From a virus: a DNA stretch of 20,064 bases. The first letter of the stretch is position 1. Every line of letters starts with the position of its first letter. The stretch lies in the IMG/VR virus record IMGVR_UViG_3300006810_000562, positions 1 through 20,064 of that record. One strand, given 5' to 3'. Under the pieces are notes generated by a model. That model saw only the letters and a program-made list of their open reading frames with translations, had not been told where the DNA came from and made no database searches. The translations under genes were made by a program, and so were the position numbers. Shown one piece after another: positions 4,660 to 19,828 of the stretch.

Positions 4660-5748
4660 ATGCAGAGAGAAGAAATACAAAAACAAGCCTTAAACGCAAC
4701 TTTAAACTTAAGTAGATCAGGATTAGCATTAGGTACAGGTGTGGGTAAGACTTTAGTTGGTTTATCTCATGCAGAAAGAGAACACGCTGGGTTAAAAAAT
4801 GTTTTAATTGTAGCACCTAAGTTGAGCATATTAGATAGTTGGAAAGAAGAGGCTAAAAAGCATAAAAAAGAACATGTTTTAGGAAATGCTGAATATACAA
4901 CTTACTTAAGCTTAAATAAAAAAGACCCTAATGCTTATGATATTATATATCTTGATGAGTGTCATAACTTATTAGATTCTCATAAAGAGTTTTTGAGCAA
5001 GTATAAAGGAATGATATTGGGTTTAACAGGTACTCCACCAAAAAGAGATTATTCTGAAAAAGGTCAGATGGTAAATAAGTTCTGTCCTATAGTATATACT
5101 TATGGTGTAGATGATGCTGTTAGTGATAATATTCTAAATGACTATAGAATAGTAGTTCATATGGTACCTTTAAGCACAGAAAATAACATTGATGTTGCTA
5201 CCAAAGCAAGGTCATTTAAAACTTCTGAAACAAAAAACTATAGTTATTGGTGTAGTAGAATTGATGGTGGTAAAACACCTAAGCAGCTACAGATGGCTAG
5301 AATTATGAGGATGAAAGCTATGATGGACTTTCCAAGCAAAGAAGCTTATGCTAAAAAGCTAATGGAGTCTATTTCAAGTAAGTGTATTATATTTGCTAAT
5401 ACTCAAGATCAAGCAGATAGAATGTGTAAGCATTCTTATCATAGTAATAATCCTGATTCAGAAAAAAATCTTGTTATGTTTAAATATGGTGACATAGATA
5501 AGCTATCTTGTGTACTTCAATTAAGTGAGGGTGTGAATATTCCTAACTTAAAACAAGGTATTATTATGCACGCATATGGTAATGAGAGAAAGTCTGCTCA
5601 AAGAATTGGTAGATTATTAAGACTTAACCCAGATGAAACAGCTATAGTACACATACTTTGTTATAGTAATACTATAGATGAAAAGTGGGTAGAGTCTGCA
5701 CTTGAGTCATATGACAAAGACAAAATATTTTATAAACAATATGTATGA
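4660..5748 (+). CDS. Superfamily 2 DNA helicase (SNF2/DEAD-like)
   Basis: This 362-residue ATPase has the SF2 helicase motifs in order: Walker A GTGVGKT at residues 25-31, motif Ia around VAPKLSILDSW (51-61), a DECH box at 99-102, TGTPP at 123-127, a second-domain motif IV CIIFANT, motif V near LSEGVNIP and motif VI QRIGRLLR at 314-321. It is compact compared with cellular helicases and has no extra accessory domains. Enzymes of this type translocate on DNA and can unwind forks or recombination intermediates; crAss-like phages carry SNF2-type helicases in this module. The stop overlaps the next start (ATGA). The exact subfamily is not certain. Confidence 0.9.
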   Translation: MQREEIQKQALNATLNLSRSGLALGTGVGKTLVGLSHAEREHAGLKNVLIVAPKLSILDSWKEEAKKHKKEHVLGNAEYTTYLSLNKKDPNAYDIIYLDECHNLLDSHKEFLSKYKGMILGLTGTPPKRDYSEKGQMVNKFCPIVYTYGVDDAVSDNILNDYRIVVHMVPLSTENNIDVATKARSFKTSETKNYSYWCSRIDGGKTPKQLQMARIMRMKAMMDFPSKEAYAKKLMESISSKCIIFANTQDQADRMCKHSYHSNNPDSEKNLVMFKYGDIDKLSCVLQLSEGVNIPNLKQGIIMHAYGNERKSAQRIGRLLRLNPDETAIVHILCYSNTIDEKWVESALESYDKDKIFYKQYV

Positions 5749-7398: not shown

Positions 7399-7453
7399 GC
7401 ATAATATTAAACCTGTAGGGTTTAAAACTATATTTGCTGAAGAAGGATGTTAA
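7328..7453 (+). CDS. Possible basic 41-residue protein overlapping its neighbours
   Basis: An open frame of 41 codons starts inside the 3' end of the 7204 gene and stops at 7451-7453, four bases inside the next gene (ATGTTAA). The product is very basic (KKRRAIRHNIKPVG centre) and ends GC. In its favour, it fills the otherwise empty 48 bases between two genes and couples to the radical SAM start. Against it, the overlap of 71 bases is longer than any other here. I give it low confidence. Confidence 0.3.
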   Translation: MKVGRIKTLKTYKEELLKKRRAIRHNIKPVGFKTIFAEEGC

Positions 7454-8289
7454 GTAAAGTAAACAGAAAAAGTTTAAAAATTAAAACATCAGGTAGATCT
7501 ACAGATTATTTAACACCATCTTTTATATTTGGTTGCGGATTTAACTGTAGTTACTGTTACTGTAAACGTCACGTACACAGTGGGTTAACAGCTGCTACTA
7601 ATGTAGAAGAGATTCTTACAGAAGTTGATCACCATGCTTGGTTTGCAGATGTAGAAAAGCCTAATCAAACTCATAAAGAGTATGTTACTTATGATATAGG
7701 TTGTAATACTGATGTAGCTTTACACTATAAACATTTAGAATGGGATAAAGTTTTTGACTTTTTTAAACAACATCCAAGAGCAATGGGTTCTTTTGCAACA
7801 AAATATGTAAATGAAAAGTTGCTTGATTATGATCCTGAAGGTAAGATGAGAATTAGATTTAGTCTTATGCCTCAAAAATATGCTGATGTATTAGAACCTA
7901 ATACTTCTAGCATAGTTGAGAGAATTAATGCTATATCAAAATTTCAAGATGCTGGTTGGGATGTCCATGTAAATTTCAGTCCTGTGGTTGTTACCAATGG
8001 ATGGTTAGATGAATATAAAGGTTTATTTGAGCTTCTGCCTGTTAATGAAAAAGTTAAAGCAGAAGTAATATTTCTTACTCATAATTTAGGAAGACATATT
8101 TTTAACTTAAAAAATAATCCTGAAGGAGAAGATTTATTATGGAGACCTGAAATTCAAGAAAATAAGGTGTCTCAGTATGGAGGAGAAAACATCCGGTATA
8201 AACGTGATTTAAAAGCTCACTATATAAAACAATGGACGCAGCTCCATGATGAGATAATTCCGTGGAATACAATAAGATATATATTTTAA
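7447..8289 (+). CDS. Radical SAM protein, spore photoproduct lyase (SPL/SplB)-like
   Basis: This 280-residue protein carries a radical SAM cluster CxxxCxxC at Cys30, Cys34 and Cys37, inside a GCGFNCSYCYCKRH stretch preceded by DYLTPSFI, as in the spore photoproduct lyase / DNA repair photolyase family. Cys86 in IGCNTD lies where the SPL hydrogen-donating cysteine (Cys141 in B. subtilis) would be expected. SPL reverses thymine spore photoproduct in DNA using a 5'-deoxyadenosyl radical. Length is slightly below the usual 330-340 residues, the N-terminal part being short. In a phage the substrate is unknown: DNA damage repair or a modified base are both possible. Confidence 0.75.
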   Translation: MLSKVNRKSLKIKTSGRSTDYLTPSFIFGCGFNCSYCYCKRHVHSGLTAATNVEEILTEVDHHAWFADVEKPNQTHKEYVTYDIGCNTDVALHYKHLEWDKVFDFFKQHPRAMGSFATKYVNEKLLDYDPEGKMRIRFSLMPQKYADVLEPNTSSIVERINAISKFQDAGWDVHVNFSPVVVTNGWLDEYKGLFELLPVNEKVKAEVIFLTHNLGRHIFNLKNNPEGEDLLWRPEIQENKVSQYGGENIRYKRDLKAHYIKQWTQLHDEIIPWNTIRYIF

Positions 8290-9799: not shown

Positions 9800-10250
9800 T
9801 TTACTAAAAAAGTATAAAGATGGTACCTTAACATTAGGTACTTTTAAAAGATGTAAAAGGCTGGTTAAAGACTTAACAAAAAGTCAGTTTGATATAATAG
9901 ATGACCAGATAAGAGCGTATATAACAAAAGGAGGATCTTACCATTTTATGCTCTGGCAATATTTAAAAGGAGATAAAAGACCAGAAGTTTGTAATGTAGC
10001 TTTGGTATCAGAAATATTTATTTACAAAGAGATTGGTTTAATAACAGAAGAAGAGATGGAAAGAATGATTAGTCTTTTAGCATCTGATGATGAAGATAAC
10101 TTCTTTATAGGACTTACTACCTTTGAATATTTCTATAATAATTTAGATGATAAGGCTAAGAAAAACAAAAAGAAGTATCTGATAAAGAATCAGGATGAGA
10201 TATTTAAAAACATTATGAAGTTAAAAAAAGAAGAAATCGTTTCACATTAA
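9792..10250 (+). CDS. Protein with SxDxxNxxxxL motif, unknown function
   Basis: The N-terminal half of this 152-residue protein is basic and helical. Residues 85-117 contain a motif of the form LLASDDEDNFFIGLTTFEYF that recurs in the products of the genes at 17921 and 18294 (LLSNSEEDFTIGLESF and MATSKDEGNKFLALEML). These look like members of a short helical-repeat group common in Bacteroidota phages. The C-terminus is Lys-rich. The gene ends four bases into the convergent gene on the - strand (10247-10546). Confidence 0.6.
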   Translation: MIDLLKKYKDGTLTLGTFKRCKRLVKDLTKSQFDIIDDQIRAYITKGGSYHFMLWQYLKGDKRPEVCNVALVSEIFIYKEIGLITEEEMERMISLLASDDEDNFFIGLTTFEYFYNNLDDKAKKNKKKYLIKNQDEIFKNIMKLKKEEIVSH

Positions 10251-10546
10251 GCTTCTTTGTTATCTAAGTTATTAGAATATTCATCTAAAAGATCTTTACT
10301 CAGCTTTTCATTAATGATTGATAGCATAACAATAGAGGCAGCTTCTTTCCATGTTTCATCAACAATTTCTGATAATACATCTAAAGGAGTTGCTGTTTTT
10401 AATATTTCACCTGTTCTTATGTGAATATTAGTTCCGGCATCAGGATTTTTAACACTTACAAATGTAAGTCTAGTTATGTGTGCAACATTCAGTCTTTCAA
10501 AGTATCTGGAACCATCAGCATCTCTAAATTCAACTCCTATAAACAT
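10247..10546 (-). CDS. Small beta-type protein on the - strand
   Basis: This 99-residue protein has an N-terminal half that reads as short strands (FIGVEFRDADG, NVAHITRLTFV, TNIHIRTGEILKTATPL), similar in layout to small FlbD/SwrD-like barrels: strand-rich, with a T-x-x-G-E-I turn. The rest is helical with an acidic end. It is transcribed against its neighbours: its 3' end overlaps the + gene at 9792 by four bases, and its start faces the + gene at 10580 across 33 bases. A different expression time from the main + transcript is likely. Confidence 0.6.
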   Translation of the reverse strand: MFIGVEFRDADGSRYFERLNVAHITRLTFVSVKNPDAGTNIHIRTGEILKTATPLDVLSEIVDETWKEAASIVMLSIINEKLSKDLLDEYSNNLDNKEA

Positions 10547-10579: not shown

Positions 10580-10957
10580 ATGCTAACAGTAAAATTAATT
10601 AAGAAAAACGGCAAGCTTGACTATGTTGATAAAAAAGATAAAGTCAAGTATAATTTGTTCTTAGATAAAGTATCTGAAGGAGACACTGTTGAAATATTTT
10701 TTAATATTCAGACAGATAAAGCTTCAACAGCTCAAATATCTAAAGTTCATGCATGCATAAGACACATAGCAAAAGAACTAGGTTATTCTTTTGATGATAT
10801 GAAGTCTATGATAAAAATGAAGTCAGGTCTAACATTTTTAGATGGAGAAGATAATGTAATTAACAAATCTTTTGCTGAATGTTCTAAAGATGAAATGAGT
10901 TTGACTATACAAACTTGTGAAGATATAGCAAGAGATAATGGAATTATTCTTGGGTAG
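10580..10957 (+). CDS. NinB-like recombination protein (tentative)
   Basis: This is a 125-residue protein starting MLTVKLIKKNGK. The frame is open upstream to 10421, but that extension lies inside the - strand gene, so I chose 10580. The pattern is an N-terminal beta part, then KASTAQISKVHACIRHIAKELGY (about 52-74), a KMKSGL segment, and KSFAECSKDEMSLTIQTC. This order resembles NinB/Orf-type single-strand DNA recombination mediators of phages, where an Arg/Lys-Ser-x-x-Gln-x-x-x-helix is followed by a similar C-terminal helix. Location among replication genes agrees. The call is weak at sequence level. It ends 14 bases inside the next - strand gene. Confidence 0.5.
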   Translation: MLTVKLIKKNGKLDYVDKKDKVKYNLFLDKVSEGDTVEIFFNIQTDKASTAQISKVHACIRHIAKELGYSFDDMKSMIKMKSGLTFLDGEDNVINKSFAECSKDEMSLTIQTCEDIARDNGIILG

Positions 10958-11258
10958 GAGGTACATAACCTTCATCCTCCGGTTCTAAAATTTCTTTTTC
11001 TTCATACAGATTAGCCTTCTTAGCATTATTTTCAATATCTGCTAGAAGAATAGTTAATGTATAGAAAGCTCTTTCCCAGTCATTCATGTCTTCATACTTA
11101 CCTTCCATTACTTGCTTAAGATGCTTTTCTCTTTCATCATCATCTTTAATATGTTGAAACAGATAAAAAAGAGCAGCTTTTGCCATTAGGTAATATGATT
11201 TATTTACTTTGATGTCTACAAGAGCATCATCTTTTAACTCTTTAACTTTAATAGCCAT
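10944..11258 (-). CDS. Small helical acidic protein on the - strand
   Basis: This 104-residue protein starts MAIKVKELKDDALVDIKVNK. The frame runs further upstream to 11375 but that part lies in the uracil-DNA glycosylase gene, so I chose the ATG at 11258. A strand-like start is followed by a helical middle (YYLMAKAALFYLFQHI, then a DWERAFYTLTILLADIE helix) and an acidic, Pro-ending tail. Its start codon shares two bases with the start of the + strand glycosylase gene (CATG), and its 3' end overlaps the + gene at 10580 by 14 bases. The family is unknown. Confidence 0.6.
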   Translation of the reverse strand: MAIKVKELKDDALVDIKVNKSYYLMAKAALFYLFQHIKDDDEREKHLKQVMEGKYEDMNDWERAFYTLTILLADIENNAKKANLYEEKEILEPEDEGYVPPTQE

Positions 11259-11973
11259 GAATAAAACTTTAGATTTAGACGAAATTAAAGAAAAAATATT
11301 AGAAAAACTAAAAAGTTCCGGGTGGGATAGAATTTTAAAAGGTTTTATCAAAAGTTCTGAATTTGATGCTATCATAAAAGAACTTGTTAAACAATCACGG
11401 GATGGTAAAAAATTTACACCAACACTTAAGTATATCTTTAGAGCTTTTGAGGAATGTCCTTATGAAGATCTTAAAGTTGTTATGGTTGGTCAGGATCCTT
11501 ATCCAGGATTTGAAGTTGCTGATGGCATAGCATTTAGCTGCAGCAGAAAAGAATATGAGCAACCTAGCCTTAAGTATATGCTAGATGCTATTGACAGAAC
11601 AGTTTATGATAATAAAAAGATTGTTGATAGAAATCTAGATTTAAAAAGATGGAGTAACCAAGGTATGTTAATGCTTAACACAGCTTTAACAACTAATATT
11701 GGTAAAATTGGTCAACATTACTTAATTTGGAAACCTTTTATTGCTTATTTATTTGATTGGCTTACTTGGCATAACAATGGACTTGTGTATATCTATTTAG
11801 GTGCAGAAGCTAAGAAATGGTCAGATGTGGTAAATGACAATAATTATAAACTGTATGCTTCTCATCCTGCTAGTGCTGCTTATAGCAAAAGTGCTGAATG
11901 GAATTGCGGAGATGTGTTTGTAAAGACTACACAAATTGTAAAAGAAAATTATAATCACGAAATAGAATGGTAG
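11257..11973 (+). CDS. ung-like: Uracil-DNA glycosylase, family 1
   Basis: This 238-residue enzyme has the family-1 motifs: GQDPYP at 78-83 (Asp80 is the catalytic base), a DGIAFS segment, LMLNTALTT with Asn141 for uracil recognition, and HPASAAYS at 203-210 with His203 as the catalytic histidine. The HPSPLS motif usual in the family is altered to HPASAA, which may alter base flipping. It removes uracil from DNA; in phages it repairs deaminated cytosine or blocks dU incorporation, and it is typical of crAss-like replication modules. I start at 11257 because MNKTLDLDEIKEKI reads as a family-like N-terminus; the upstream extension lies in a - strand gene. Confidence 0.92.
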   Translation: MNKTLDLDEIKEKILEKLKSSGWDRILKGFIKSSEFDAIIKELVKQSRDGKKFTPTLKYIFRAFEECPYEDLKVVMVGQDPYPGFEVADGIAFSCSRKEYEQPSLKYMLDAIDRTVYDNKKIVDRNLDLKRWSNQGMLMLNTALTTNIGKIGQHYLIWKPFIAYLFDWLTWHNNGLVYIYLGAEAKKWSDVVNDNNYKLYASHPASAAYSKSAEWNCGDVFVKTTQIVKENYNHEIEW

Positions 11974-12736: not shown

Positions 12737-13753
12737 ATGGAAAGATTTAATGGAGCAAAACCGTTAATTCCTGTAAGTGAGAGAGATGCTCTTAGAAAAG
12801 CAATCATTAAAATTAAAGCTAGAAAGACAGGGCAGTTAAAATTTCTTAAGACAGCTTGGCCTAAATTTAATGATGCTTTTTGTGATGGCTTGGAATGGCG
12901 TACAATTACTGTTGTTGGAGCAAGACCTGGTACAGGTAAGACATTGTTTATGGAACAACTTGTTTCTGATATAATTGACATTAACACAGACCAGGAATTT
13001 AGAGTATTAAAATTTCAAATGGAAATGCTTGATGAAACAAGTGGTGTAAGAAAGTTATCTCAGCATACAGGTAAAGACTACAACACTCTTATGAGTAAAG
13101 AAGAATCTTTAGAGGATCAGATTTATTGGAAGTGTGTTGAGTTGTATGAAAAAACAGCTGATAAGGATTTTGTAAATGTTATTTATGATCCTTGTACAAT
13201 AGATACAATGTGTGCAACCATACATTATGAGTTGGAAAAATATAAAAGAGTAGTTGGAAAAGATGATGATGGAAATCCTATTTATCAATACACTAATACT
13301 TTGGTTACCATAGATCACTCTGCTTTATTTAAACAAGCCAAGAATGAGCGTGATAAGTTTCAGACTTTGAATGCATTGGGTGAAGCTTTGACTTATATGA
13401 AGAAGCATTATCCTATAGCATTTATTGTTCTTAGTCAGCTAAATAGAAATATAGATGACCCTAAAAGAACAATGGATGGTGAATATGGTAACTATGTCTT
13501 AGATTCTGATATCTATGGTTCTGATGCTTTACTTCAGCATGCTGATGTTGTAGTTGGTATTAACAAACCTTCTTTAAGAAAGATAAGACAGTATGGTCCG
13601 GAAAGATTTATTATTGATGATCCAGACTTATTACCATTTCACTTTCTTAAGTCTAGAAATGGTACTACAAGGTTAAGCTTTTTCAGATTTGATAGAAACA
13701 CTATCAGAATTGAACAAGCTCCAACTCCAGGTTCAGGAATTAAAATAACATAA
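12737..13753 (+). CDS. dnaB-like: DnaB-type replicative helicase
   Basis: This 338-residue protein has the RecA-like core of DnaB (superfamily 4): Walker A GARPGTGKT at 61-69, FQMEML (93-98) after it, Walker B TIDH at 191-194, SQLNR at 233-237 (DnaB motif 3), and a C-terminal FLKSRNGTTRL segment with arginine and lysine finger positions. The N-terminal domain of cellular DnaB is missing; only about 55 residues precede the core, with a GQLKFLKTAWPKFN stretch like the DnaB linker helix that packs on the neighbouring subunit. It should form the hexamer that opens the fork for the primase at 15839. Confidence 0.93.
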   Translation: MERFNGAKPLIPVSERDALRKAIIKIKARKTGQLKFLKTAWPKFNDAFCDGLEWRTITVVGARPGTGKTLFMEQLVSDIIDINTDQEFRVLKFQMEMLDETSGVRKLSQHTGKDYNTLMSKEESLEDQIYWKCVELYEKTADKDFVNVIYDPCTIDTMCATIHYELEKYKRVVGKDDDGNPIYQYTNTLVTIDHSALFKQAKNERDKFQTLNALGEALTYMKKHYPIAFIVLSQLNRNIDDPKRTMDGEYGNYVLDSDIYGSDALLQHADVVVGINKPSLRKIRQYGPERFIIDDPDLLPFHFLKSRNGTTRLSFFRFDRNTIRIEQAPTPGSGIKIT

Positions 13754-13755
13754 TA

Positions 13756-14376
13756 ATGATTGACAGAAAAAGAAAAGAGGCTGAGTTTTTTGCTGAGCAC
13801 AAAGAAACTTTTAAAAAGTTAAAGTTACATGATCCTTTCTTTACAATTAAAACAGCTTTCTATAAGAAAGGTAAAGAAGGAAGACAAGTACAATTTTTTG
13901 AGTGGGAGCTTGAAAAAGGTGCTGACATTTACGTAGAATTTTATGATTATGAAGAAACATCTCATGGTAAAGATATGGTGCCTATGTATGAAAGCAGAAA
14001 TCTGTTTAAGTATACACACAATCCATTCTTTAAAGAAGAATATGACATTAAATCTAATGTGAATAAAAAAGGTGAAGAATACATTACTTATATGATTCCT
14101 GTATCTGAATTGTCTGTTGTTCTGAAAGATGGTAATATGATTACATATCCTGATTTTGAAGCTGGTAATTATATAGAACCGCAAGAACAATCTAAGATTA
14201 GCATTTTCCCGGATTTTGAGCAAGAGTTAGGACTAAACAGTTCTTCTGAAGATGCTCCTTTTAGTGAAATGACTATTAAAGATTTTTGTGCAGTGATGTT
14301 TAAAAAACCAGTAAGTGATAAAGAATGGTTAAATAATTTAATTAAAAACGCAAAGTATGGAAATAGTACTTCCTAA
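13756..14376 (+). CDS. Unknown protein between helicase and Sak4 genes
   Basis: This 206-residue protein starts two bases after the helicase gene. The middle is predicted beta-rich (QVQFFEWELEKGADIYVEFYDY, ITYMIPVSELSVVL), preceded by a Lys-rich helix. Residues 145-175 are acidic and low in complexity. The last 30 (MTIKDFCAVMFKKPVSDKEWLNNLI) form a likely helical peptide-like module. No active-site motif is found. Its 3' end overlaps the Sak4-like gene by 20 bases, so the three are translated together. It may be a replisome accessory protein; no better call is possible. Confidence 0.6.
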   Translation: MIDRKRKEAEFFAEHKETFKKLKLHDPFFTIKTAFYKKGKEGRQVQFFEWELEKGADIYVEFYDYEETSHGKDMVPMYESRNLFKYTHNPFFKEEYDIKSNVNKKGEEYITYMIPVSELSVVLKDGNMITYPDFEAGNYIEPQEQSKISIFPDFEQELGLNSSSEDAPFSEMTIKDFCAVMFKKPVSDKEWLNNLIKNAKYGNSTS

Positions 14377-15079
14377 AAAGAAGGTATCTGCTACCAGAAC
14401 TAATCCTAAAAGAATGATTATTTATTCTAAACCTAAGACAGGTAAAACAACTGCTTTTGCTGGTTTAGATGATAACCTGATTATTGATTTAGAAAATGGT
14501 TCTGATTATGTAGAAGCTTTGAAAGTAAAAGCTAATAGTTTAGAAGAGCTGATTGCTATTGGTAAACAGATTAAAGAACAAGGTAAACCTTACAAGTATG
14601 TTACTCTAGATACAGTAACAGCATTAGAAGATATGGTAAAGCCTTTAGCTGCAAAATTGTACCGGGAAACACCAATGGGTAAGAATTTTTCTGGTGATGA
14701 TGTAATTAAATTACCAAATGGTGCTGGATATTTGTATATTCGGCAAGCATTTTTTCAAGTACTTGACTTTGTTGATACTCTTGCTGATACTGTGATACTA
14801 TCAGGTCACATTAAAGATAAGCAGGTAGATGATAAAGGAGAGCTTGTTATGTCAGCTAACATAGATTTGACAGGTAAGATTAAATCTTTAATCTGTGCTA
14901 ACGCAGATGCTATAGGTTATATGTTCAGAAAAGGTGATAAAGTAATTCTTAGTTTTAAAACTAATGAGGAAGTTACTTGTGGTGCAAGACCTGAACATTT
15001 AAGAAACCAAGAAATAGTTATTTCTGAATCAGTTGATGGTAAGATTATCACTCACTGGGATAGAGTATATGTTAAATAA
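14357..15079 (+). CDS. Sak4-like RecA-fold ATPase (AAA_24 type)
   Basis: This 240-residue P-loop protein has Walker A SKPKTGKTT at 24-32 (the usual first Gly is Ser), an IDLENGSDYV acidic segment (43-52), Walker B YVTLDT at 81-86, and SGHIKD at 149-154. The layout (short N-terminus, compact single RecA fold, ending in a beta-rich part) is that of the Sak4/AAA_24 phage ATPases. Sak4 proteins act in single-strand annealing recombination together with a phage SSB. The next gene here encodes an SSB-like protein, which agrees with that pairing. The 15-base gap before it allows one transcript. Confidence 0.82.
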   Translation: MEIVLPKKKVSATRTNPKRMIIYSKPKTGKTTAFAGLDDNLIIDLENGSDYVEALKVKANSLEELIAIGKQIKEQGKPYKYVTLDTVTALEDMVKPLAAKLYRETPMGKNFSGDDVIKLPNGAGYLYIRQAFFQVLDFVDTLADTVILSGHIKDKQVDDKGELVMSANIDLTGKIKSLICANADAIGYMFRKGDKVILSFKTNEEVTCGARPEHLRNQEIVISESVDGKIITHWDRVYVK

Positions 15080-15838: not shown

Positions 15839-16822
15839 ATGATTTCTACTAAAAACTTAATAGGTCATATTAATGACGTACCAAGAGAATGGGTATTTGA
15901 ATATTATCTTAATCTAAGAGAAAAGCTTTGCGGGCAAGATGTAAAAATCTTATCAGTATTTAACTCAAAAGATTCTGTGCCTTCAATGTTTATTTACTTT
16001 GATACAAGTTCTAATGAGTACAAGTTTAAAGATTTCTCTTCAGGATATCAGGGAGATCACATACAGCTTGTGTTGCATTTATTCAATCTTCCTGTAAGAT
16101 GGAAAGCAACTTATAAGATTATCAATGACTATTCTGAATATTTAAAAACACATAAAAGATTTGACAAAGTTGAAATAAAATTTCACAGTAAATATCAAGT
16201 ATCTGATTATCAAATAAGATCCTGGAATAATCTTGATGCCAAGTACTGGACCAGTTTTGGTATATCATCTAACACTCTTAAAAAATATAATGTACATCCA
16301 TTAGAATTCTTTACCATGAGTAAAGAAGAAGATGGTAAAGCATATACTATTACTTCTAATAAGCATTATACATATGGTTATTTTAGAGAAGATGGAGAGT
16401 TGTTTAAGATATATATGCCTAAGAATAAAGATAAAAAGTTTATCAAGGTTCAGAATTATATTCAAGGTATGGATCAACTTACATATGATTCAGATTATCT
16501 GATTATACTATCTAGTCTAAAAGATTTAATGAGCTTTGAAGAGCTTGGTATATCTAATATAGAGAAGATTGCACCGGATAGTGAAAACAGTGTAATTCAA
16601 GAAAGTATAATTAATGATCTTAAAGAAAAATACAAAAAGATTGTTGTTATGTTTGACAATGATGAGCCTGGCATAAAGTCTATGCAGGTGTATAATAACA
16701 AATATGATTTAAATTTTATTAATTTAAACTTATCTAAAGATCTTTCTGATTCTGTATTAGAATTTGGAATAGACAAAGTAAAGAATGAATTATTTCCTTT
16801 ATTAAAACATACTGTAAAATGA
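15839..16822 (+). CDS. dnaG-like: DnaG-type primase with degenerate zinc and TOPRIM motifs
   Basis: Residues 35-85 of this 327-residue protein keep the outline of the DnaG zinc-binding domain (SVPSMFIYFDTSSNEYKF, then GYQGDHIQLVLHL), but the cysteines are gone: the protein has a single Cys (31). The TOPRIM part has LIILSSLKD at 221-229 where DnaG has an EGxxD motif, so the metal-binding Glu is replaced by Ser while Asp229 stays. DND at 273-275 (VVMFDNDEPG) matches the second TOPRIM motif. A KDLSD motif follows at 300-304. It should make RNA primers with the DnaB-type helicase. Its stop overlaps the next start by four bases. Confidence 0.82.
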   Translation: MISTKNLIGHINDVPREWVFEYYLNLREKLCGQDVKILSVFNSKDSVPSMFIYFDTSSNEYKFKDFSSGYQGDHIQLVLHLFNLPVRWKATYKIINDYSEYLKTHKRFDKVEIKFHSKYQVSDYQIRSWNNLDAKYWTSFGISSNTLKKYNVHPLEFFTMSKEEDGKAYTITSNKHYTYGYFREDGELFKIYMPKNKDKKFIKVQNYIQGMDQLTYDSDYLIILSSLKDLMSFEELGISNIEKIAPDSENSVIQESIINDLKEKYKKIVVMFDNDEPGIKSMQVYNNKYDLNFINLNLSKDLSDSVLEFGIDKVKNELFPLLKHTVK

Positions 16823-17199
16823 GTTGGATATATAACAATGTAGAATTTGAACCAAGTATGATACCTGATAAGGCTGTAGGCTTTGTCTATGAGATGTCTG
16901 CTATTATAAATGGCAAACCTGTTAAGTACATTGGTAAAAAAGCTTTTTACTCTAGAAGAAAAAAGAAGTTTTCTAAAAAGAATATGCCTACTGATCGTAG
17001 AAAAAAGAACTATGAAATAGTGGTTAAGCTTAATTATGAAAACTATTATAGCAGTAATAAAGATTTAAAAGAAGCGCACAAAAAAGGAATTCCTATAAAG
17101 CGCATTATTCTACAAATATGTTATTCCAAAACAGAATTGACATATCAAGAAACTAAATTGCAATTTGTAATGAGGTTCTTGAAAAAGAGGAGTATTTAA
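16819..17199 (+). CDS. GIY-YIG-like endonuclease, 3' end out of frame
   Basis: This 126-residue product has a GFVYEMSAI start (VY at 23-24) and a KYIGKK block (YIG at 37-39), then a basic loop (residues 46-65), NYENYYSSNKDLKE, KRIILQIC and YQETKLQF with Glu111. This matches the phage GIY-YIG-like endonuclease group. After KLQF at residue 116 the family pattern is lost: the last ten residues (VMRFLKKRSI) are unlike it. The expected ending lies in the -1 frame (17166-17246). So the gene has lost one base, or a frameshift occurs. It overlaps the primase stop by four bases. Confidence 0.7.
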   Translation: MSWIYNNVEFEPSMIPDKAVGFVYEMSAIINGKPVKYIGKKAFYSRRKKKFSKKNMPTDRRKKNYEIVVKLNYENYYSSNKDLKEAHKKGIPIKRIILQICYSKTELTYQETKLQFVMRFLKKRSI

Positions 17200-18304: not shown

Positions 18305-18605
18305 TTTCACAAAAGAAGAATGGGAGAACTTGTATGCTATGGCTACTTCTAAAGATGAAGGAAACAAATTCTTAGCATTAGAGATGCTCAAAGATACAAA
18401 AAATGAGGCAGACCTTGTATTGTATGATTTTCTTAAAGATGTAGGTAATAGTGATACCAGAATAATGGGAAAACTATCTAATCTTGATGATATAAAACTA
18501 TGTGAGTTTATATTAGGCAAGTTTTTAATGATGAAAATGCAATGGTATTTTTCATTTAGTTCTTTTAAGGCAGAATCTATTACAGTAAAATTAAAAGAGA
18601 GATGA
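18294..18605 (+). CDS. Small protein with SxDxxN motif, unknown function
   Basis: This 103-residue protein carries the module FTKEEWENLYAMATSKDEGNKFLALEML (about 5-32, SKDEGN centre), as in the gene before it and the gene at 9792. The remainder is helical with two aromatic stretches, and ends basic (KLKER). The start is 11 bases inside the preceding gene and the stop overlaps the metallopeptidase start (ATGA). It looks like a paralogue of the gene before it, and may have arisen by duplication. No function is assigned. Confidence 0.6.
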   Translation: MKSDFTKEEWENLYAMATSKDEGNKFLALEMLKDTKNEADLVLYDFLKDVGNSDTRIMGKLSNLDDIKLCEFILGKFLMMKMQWYFSFSSFKAESITVKLKER

Positions 18606-19828
18606 GTAAAGAAATTAGTTTAAGTAAGATCAGTAAAGATCTTATTCTGAAAGAGCCTTTTTACGGGTTCTTTCTTATTATGTTGAATAAAGTTTGGAGA
18701 AAAGATGTTCCTACAGCAGGTGTGTCTAAGAATGGTATTAATTACCAACTTGCAATCAATGAAGAGTTTTGGAATTCTTTAAGTGATGACCATAAAACAG
18801 GTTTGCTTAAGCACGAGCTATTACATATAGCATATTTTCATTTAACTAAAGTGTTTGAATTTCCTGACAGAAAGCTTGCTAATATAGCAATGGATATGGA
18901 AATCAATCAATATATTGATGACAGCTTACTTCCTGAAGGCGGTATAGATATAAAAAATTATCCTGAGCTAAATCTAGATGAAAGAGCAGGTACCAGATAT
19001 TATTATGAAGAGCTTCAAAAAGCTAGAGATAAAAAGAATAAGAATGGTACTTCAGGCTGTCCTAATTGGGATAATATGTGTGATGCTTTAGATAATGGAA
19101 ATCCTTCTGCTATTTGTCAAACAGGATCAGGTCAAGAAGAAACTCAGATTCCAGGACATGGGACTTGGGAAGAGTTTGAAAATCTTCCTGAAGCTGAAAA
19201 GAAGATTATGGAAAAGCAGTTAGCTAAAGTTCTTAATGAAGTTTCTAAACAAACTGAAAAATCTAGAGGTACTATACCAGGATCAATCAAAGATTGGTTA
19301 CTAGAAATGGATAAGTTAGAACCAGCTAAGTTTAATTGGAAAGCTTATCTAAGAAGATTTACCGGAACTTCTACAAAGATTTTTACTAAGAAACTTAGAA
19401 GAAAGGAAAACAAAAGATTTGCTGATAATCCAGGTCTTAAAATTAAAAAGAAACAAAGGCTTCTTCTTGCCATAGATACTTCAGGTTCTGTATGTGATGA
19501 AGAACTTAAAGAGTTTATGAATGAGATTCATCATATCTATAAAATGGGTATTGAGGTCACTGTTATTCAGTGTGACACAACCATTAGATCTATTGATGAG
19601 TATAAAGGAGATTTGCAAATTAATATTGCAGGTAGAGGCGGAACCATGTTTGATCCTGTCTTAGAATATTTTAATGAAAACTATAAAAAGTTTACAAGCT
19701 TAATTTATTTTACAGATGGTGAGGCTCCTGCAAATGTAAAACCTAGAAACAGAATGTTATGGGTTTTGTCAGAGCGGTCATATATGAATGACGCTTTACC
19801 AGGTCATGTAATAAGATTAGAATTATGA
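18602..19828 (+). CDS. Zinc-metallopeptidase/VWA protein, DUF2201-like
   Basis: The N-terminal domain of this 408-residue protein has HELLH at residues 71-75 (LLKHELLHIAYFH) and a downstream IAMDMEINQYI block (95-105) that may supply a third metal ligand, the pattern of DUF2201 metallopeptidase-like domains. A Lys/Glu-rich linker (about 140-280, with a short disordered acidic part) leads to a VWA domain: LLLAIDTSGS with DxSGS at 292-296, Thr348 (GRGGTMFDP) and TDG at 371-373, so all MIDAS parts are present. In bacteria such proteins work with MoxR-type AAA+ ATPases. A start of another gene follows at 20018, whose product I cannot name. Confidence 0.82.
   Translation: MSKEISLSKISKDLILKEPFYGFFLIMLNKVWRKDVPTAGVSKNGINYQLAINEEFWNSLSDDHKTGLLKHELLHIAYFHLTKVFEFPDRKLANIAMDMEINQYIDDSLLPEGGIDIKNYPELNLDERAGTRYYYEELQKARDKKNKNGTSGCPNWDNMCDALDNGNPSAICQTGSGQEETQIPGHGTWEEFENLPEAEKKIMEKQLAKVLNEVSKQTEKSRGTIPGSIKDWLLEMDKLEPAKFNWKAYLRRFTGTSTKIFTKKLRRKENKRFADNPGLKIKKKQRLLLAIDTSGSVCDEELKEFMNEIHHIYKMGIEVTVIQCDTTIRSIDEYKGDLQINIAGRGGTMFDPVLEYFNENYKKFTSLIYFTDGEAPANVKPRNRMLWVLSERSYMNDALPGHVIRLEL

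Follow-up and report, generated by a model that had tools for sequence, protein, structure and literature searches.

Why would a virus carry a gene resembling that of spore photoproduct lyase (SPL) when its apparent hosts, the Bacteroidota, make no spores? This puzzle was raised by a preliminary description of a 20,064-nucleotide stretch of viral DNA (IMG/VR record IMGVR_UViG_3300006810_000562; hereafter, the window), which read an open reading frame at positions 7447–8289 of the plus strand as an SPL-like radical SAM protein. The frame is open across this span and encodes a product of 280 amino acids.

Profile searches identify this product as a radical SAM protein of the SPL superfamily. The Pfam SPL model (PF20903) matched it at 87.6 bits, above the cut-off of 27, while the generic Radical_SAM model stayed under its own cut-off. 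The best of five NCBIfam matches was TIGR03886, "spore photoproduct lyase family protein" (313.2 bits, E 2.2e-93), which aligned residues 6–280 to model positions 62–346 and left the first 61 model positions unmatched. The score falls short of the TIGR03886 equivalog cut-off (437.55 bits); a full-length Bacteroidota protein scored 489.7 bits against the same model. Orthology to the sporulation enzyme was rejected, as the sporulation equivalog TIGR04070 gave only 78.7 bits against a cut-off of 400. The window protein is a short form of the TIGR03886 SPL family of non-sporulating bacteria. Because this family, and not TIGR04070, is the best match, the lack of spores presents no paradox: the suggested link to Bacteroidota stood, but the puzzle that accompanied it did not. 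Among PDB sequences, only Geobacillus (Gt) SPL was matched at E <= 1e-3 (phmmer and a 52-row profile). PHROGs returned a weak match to the unnamed family phrog_13321 only, and PADLOC found nothing.

Structural comparison gave the same family. An AlphaFold2 model of the window protein, built from a 52-sequence alignment (pLDDT 92.7, pTM 0.90), placed six SPL entries at the top of a Foldseek search (E 1e-17 to 1e-18), with the next entry at E 1.3e-4. VIA-align superposed the model on residues 62–341 of the Gt SPL structure 4fhf over 270 residues (Z 28.8, rmsd 2.2 Å). A better match to a radical SAM family other than SPL was sought and none was found, the next fold family being the PFL-activating enzyme (Z 14.5). 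The SPL-like identity first proposed from the letters of the DNA is thus borne out by Pfam, NCBIfam and fold alike. A Foldseek search against predicted viral structures returned remote radical SAM proteins only (best E 6e-8, 14% identity).

Since the model aligns to residues 62–341 of 4fhf, the window protein is an SPL core without Gt residues 1–61. This truncation separates the viral from the cellular genes. Upstream in-frame codons before the core number at most 31 in all 88 viral loci counted (not dereplicated, and leaving out L001, L012, L054 and L092) and at least 55 in all 78 cellular loci (L102–L179). Locus L101, a phage-like contig with masked letters in a metagenome-assembled genome (MAG), has 74 such codons and belongs to neither count.

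The residues on which SPL chemistry depends are present in this core. The CX3CX2C motif for a [4Fe-4S] cluster, which the preliminary description had picked out as Cys30, Cys34 and Cys37, is found in the translation (codons at 7534–7557, plus strand) and includes Tyr36, the equivalent of Gt Tyr96. It is followed by Tyr38 (7558–7560, plus strand), which aligns with the radical relay Gt Tyr98, and by an additional Cys39. Cys86 (7702–7704, plus strand), within the sequence YDIGCNTD, had been assigned to the place of the hydrogen donor, and both sequence alignment and the global fold match set it against Gt Cys140 (Cys141 in the Bs enzyme). Where the window protein has Cys86, wild-type 4fhc has Cys and chain 4fhe, titled a "C140A mutant", has Ala, so Cys86 matches the donor position. 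According to PMC3742179, Cys140 donates the hydrogen and Tyr98 relays the radical.

These residues are kept in nearly all viral relatives. Among distinct viral rows, 66 of the 69 without a gap have Tyr at the Tyr38 position, and Tyr36 is also kept. Position 86 is Cys in 65 of the 68 rows counted (L012, in which an intron lies, being left out) and Thr in the other three. The Thr residues belong to a single viral sub-branch (L003, L005, L006 and identical copies), and a comparison of L003 with L005 gave a dN/dS of 0.09, indicating purifying selection. Position 86 varies more among cells. The cellular loci were chosen as the 80 closest to the viral query among 573, so that their proportions are not those of the whole family; 78 rows were counted. 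Cys was found in Bacteroidota (22/22), Myxococcota (4/4) and Acidobacteriota (1/1), and Glu in Pseudomonadota (7/7), Cyanobacteriota (3/3) and Armatimonadota (1/1). Actinomycetota had 38 Glu, one Thr and one Cys, the last in a MAG row (L124) that groups among Bacteroidota in the tree. Outside Bacteroidota and Myxococcota, Glu replaces the donor Cys in most cellular members of TIGR03886 (L093–L098, L126–L179), and these proteins may have a chemistry different from that of SPL. Together with the viral Thr rows (3/68), the prevalence of Glu in cellular rows suggests that the family may not always perform SPL chemistry.

The substitutions at position 86 bear on which lesion the viral enzymes act upon. 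A short form with a more open pocket might reverse a thymine adduct other than the classical spore photoproduct in hydrated phage DNA, a reading that we consider rather unlikely yet worth weighing. Apart from Glu or Thr at the donor place elsewhere in the family, it draws on the missing N-terminal ~60 residues of 88/88 viral loci, on the long branch leading to the viral clade (1.09 in an earlier tree) and on PMC3231322, according to which the spore photoproduct arises in dry DNA and not in DNA irradiated in aqueous cellular surroundings. The retention of Cys86, Tyr36 and Tyr38 in nearly all viral proteins, however, argues for SPL chemistry. An SPL-like mechanism is likely for the window protein.

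We identified numerous relatives in environmental viruses. An IMG/VR scan with one sequence yielded 11 relatives among 18 candidates, and a profile scan at least 515 among 599, of which the best 80 were retained. By comparison, 50,697 public phage records contained two matches only, both remote (~26% identity) and both from faecal phage records. One candidate phage carrier, MT835514, has a full-length ORF beside a cation-efflux-like ORF (by eye) and looks like a bacterial fragment. No paper on a phage SPL was found in the open-licence literature. A scan of cellular genomes with a mixed profile gave 573 relatives and one with a viral-only profile gave none, its patterns being virus-specific. 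L100 and L101, initially taken as cellular, fall inside the viral clade and have phage-type genes on their contigs: a DnaB-like gene in L100 and, by eye, dNMP-kinase-like and rIIA-like ORFs in L101. The nearest cellular relatives of the window protein in our trees are in Bacteroidota, with up to 52% identity, though only 4 of 395 Bacteroidota genomes have TIGR03886 matches of at least 300 bits, three of them over the cut-off. SPL-family genes also occur on plasmids (L093:1-2355; L096:1-2355; L094:1300-3421), in Deinococcus near dinB and a uracil-DNA glycosylase (UDG) gene, in Streptomyces beside a photolyase-family gene, and in Roseomonas as two tandem copies that follow repAB.

Some viral copies are interrupted at catalytic cysteines. 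In L012, a group I intron (RF00028, 65.6 bits) with an inner ORF occupies 1051–2040; it was missed at the Rfam gathering threshold and detected by an E-value search of a short stretch. The exons, delimited by eye, end in GAC ATT GGC T (to 1050) and resume with GT AAT TCA GAT (from 2041), so that joining them by splicing would restore the Cys86 codon, TGT. In L189 (1175–3006) and L245 (160–1997), a two-part (split) intein divides the gene between Tyr36 and Cys37. Its N part matches PT-HINT (48.5 bits in L189 and 44.2 in L245; cut-off 27.7), and the C part in L189 covers Intein_splicing positions 117–155 of 155 at 23.9 bits, below the cut-off. A long ORF with HNH-like residues (by eye) lies on the opposite strand between and over the intein halves of both loci; the L189 copy had no Pfam match, and Rfam found nothing in either insert.

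Such insertions, along with the absence of a close relative from public phage records, might point to a gene that is an inert remnant or a passenger without catalytic function. We regard this as very improbable, given that the catalytic residues are conserved and that dN/dS among close pairs of relatives is 0.04–0.15 (computable for 12 of 14 pairs, two being saturated), values that indicate purifying selection. The gene is a real, conserved and phage-borne short form of SPL on which purifying selection is acting.

We next consider the phages that carry it. The window covers 20 kb of a replication region, on the plus strand of which the SPL gene is accompanied by an SF2 helicase (4660–5748; a relative is present in 23 of the 51 SPL contigs that extend at least 5 kb downstream), a UDG (11257–11973; nearest named phages crAss001-type, 35%), a DnaB-like helicase (12737–13753; best matches listed are crAss-like phages), a Sak4-like ssDNA annealing protein (14357–15079; PHROGs/Pfam), a Toprim DNA primase (15839–16822; matching crAss001 gp80) and a metallopeptidase/VWA-like protein (DUF2201_N and DUF2201, 18602–19828; PHROGs/Pfam). 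The UDG motifs GQDPYP...HPASA are presumably family-1-like. A small ORF at 16819–17199 has matches to phrog_447 ("NAD synthetase") and to a homing-endonuclease family and is probably a homing-endonuclease-like gene. Two minus-strand ORFs (10247–10546 and 10944–11375) interrupt the otherwise plus-strand module, the second having no Pfam or PHROGs family.

The UDG (gp74), primase and gp86 of crAss001 match the window by tblastn. Structural genes could be counted on the larger contigs of relatives, both in the lineage of the window protein (lineage 1) and in a second lineage described below: a crAss001 portal was found in 26 of 33 (lineage 1, 15/21; lineage 2, 11/12) and a crAss001 capsid in 13 of 33 (11/21 and 2/12), with no terminase PF03237 in 21 larger contigs. 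Most of the relatives' larger contigs thus look crAss-like, which fits Bacteroidota hosts and agrees with the placement first suggested. Since 133 phage records with a crAss-type portal, including 29 Flavobacterium and two Cellulophaga phages, are not known to carry the SPL gene, crAss-like phages do not have it in general. A contrast between gut and environment was dropped, as the gene seems to be missing from these aquatic phages as well.

This phage context changes what the UDG can say. The preliminary description had viewed UDG and SPL as a DNA repair set, and the UDG family is indeed found in the window. In lineage 1 it occurs on 30 of the 51 contigs that extend at least 5 kb downstream and on 14 of the 21 larger contigs; 14 of 80 lineage-2 loci have it too, and 24 of 80 UDG loci carry an SPL relative. 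According to PMC7886860, however, UDG belongs to the nucleotide-metabolism enzymes of crAss-like phages, which can be rich in introns and inteins. A UDG is therefore an expected replication/nucleotide-metabolism gene of such a phage, its co-presence may reflect plain phage ancestry, and it offers little evidence for a repair set. Neither photolyase (PF00875) nor the T4-type pyrimidine-dimer glycosylase (PF03013) was found in 21 larger contigs, where positive controls were detected. SPL could, because of this absence, be the UV-dimer repair of these phages.

UDG loci led to a second lineage of viral SPL relatives. Six loci fetched with the UDG encode an SPL relative just 32–34% identical to the window protein, and a lineage-2 profile scan gave 153 viral relatives of 217 candidates. 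Each of the best 80, which were examined (L260–L339), has the motif GC[FM]GGC[VI][DNS]TYCYM, that is CX3CX4C and not CX3CX2C, and each keeps the hydrogen-donor Cys. Another CX3CX4C relative lies at L344:7738-8619 on the minus strand. None of the lineage-2 relatives occurs in public phage records, and a search of the open-licence literature for "CX3CX4C" together with "radical SAM", in that spelling, found nothing. A model of a lineage-2 protein (L217; pLDDT 88.6, pTM 0.87) is least sure in the cluster region, with blocks at pLDDT 65–66, and aligns to SPL over 266 residues (Z 25.0, rmsd 2.5 Å), the next family reaching Z 13.3.

A short, 293-aa CX3CX4C form is also encoded by 3 of 396 genomes in one Bacteroidota order (G212, G603 and G625, the last with two copies). 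A fourth strong match (G492) spans residues 106–293 only, outside the motif. The surroundings of the gene in G212 look like chromosome, none of the ORFs read there being a phage gene. In a 55-row tree, which drops columns filled in fewer than 30% of rows and hence the two-residue insert (13/55 rows), the short forms constitute one clade (100/100) that the full-length Bacteroidota proteins adjoin. Within it, bacterial and phage CX3CX4C proteins group at 98/92 and lineage-1 phages at 100/99; L359 and L360, considered as intermediates, are ordinary lineage-1 members. The two viral lineages were united at 83/94 in a tree without the bacterial short forms. A very long branch leads to lineage 2 (2.8 in the 55-row tree and 4.8 in the tree without bacterial short forms). 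With the CX3CX4C proteins, the range of spacings known for radical SAM cluster motifs would become wider within one family, and the same chemistry could be compared with two motifs.

The long divergence and different cluster motif of lineage 2 might instead mean that the enzyme repairs nothing and modifies phage DNA bases or an RNA, for example to evade host nucleases. Radical SAM enzymes of the same fold do include RNA methyltransferases such as RlmN. The window model, however, is far closer to SPL (Z 28.8) than to RlmN (Z 13.9), and a Pfam scan of ten frequent neighbour proteins named no base-modification enzyme. A modifying role appears improbable on this evidence.

The reading we favor, with slightly better than even confidence and by analogy with characterized SPL, is that the truncated phage enzyme acts on UV-damaged phage DNA, undoing thymine photodimers without light, the substrate being the spore photoproduct or a close methyl-linked dimer. 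DNA within a virion is dense and partly dehydrated; speculatively, the lesion could be the spore photoproduct itself, formed in such capsid DNA. We infer the chemistry from SPL. Cys30, Cys34 and Cys37 would bind the [4Fe-4S] cluster, and cleavage of SAM would generate a 5'-deoxyadenosyl radical that abstracts a hydrogen from C6 of the dimer, breaking the bond between the thymines. Cys86 would then return a hydrogen to the thymine methyl radical, with Tyr38 relaying the radical so that SAM is regenerated. Its gene would form part of the replication module in crAss-like phages that infect Bacteroidota. Several points count against this reading: PMC3231322 places the spore photoproduct in dry DNA and not in aqueous cellular DNA, the N-terminal part is absent, Thr or Glu takes the donor position in some relatives, and the phage records with a crAss-type portal are not known to carry the gene. 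In cells, related genes are connected to DNA damage: splB and a UDG are listed as predicted SOS genes of Bacteroidetes in PMC8565304, splB falls under predicted SOS control in alpha- and beta-Proteobacteria in PMC3323433, and UVC induces an SPL-family gene in Curtobacterium according to PMC12029717.

A wider proposal is possible, though we hold it tentatively: environmental crAss-like phages may have their own branch of enzymes for dark reversal of photodimers caused by UV damage in the capsid, reduced to a minimal SPL core, with a sub-branch, in common with a few Bacteroidota chromosomes, whose cluster would be bound by a new CX3CX4C motif. A minimal phage SPL with the SPL catalytic residues makes a small, testable enzyme and brings a testable idea, that tightly packed virion DNA may suffer spore-type photodamage. 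SPL-like genes in non-spore-formers raise the question of which lesion gets repaired.

A comparison with known systems places the window protein among three points of reference. The replication module resembles that of crAss001, with genes for UDG, DnaB, Sak4, primase and a metalloprotease common to both, but crAss001 was not among the SPL matches and its own gp56 is annotated as an HxsC-like radical SAM protein. The splB proteins of Bacteroidota, which belong to TIGR03886, the best NCBIfam family of the window protein, are up to 52% identical to it and have Cys at position 86 in 22/22 cases; the window protein differs in missing the N-terminal ~60 residues, in its score (313 against 437.55 bits) and in falling into a separate clade. 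With respect to sporulation SplB (Gt SPL, 4FHC), it is 22% identical in the structural alignment and has neither the N-terminal domain nor an association with spores, yet the two share their fold over 270 residues (Z 28.5, rmsd 2.3 Å), the CX3CX2C motif and the equivalents of Cys140, Tyr96 and Tyr98.
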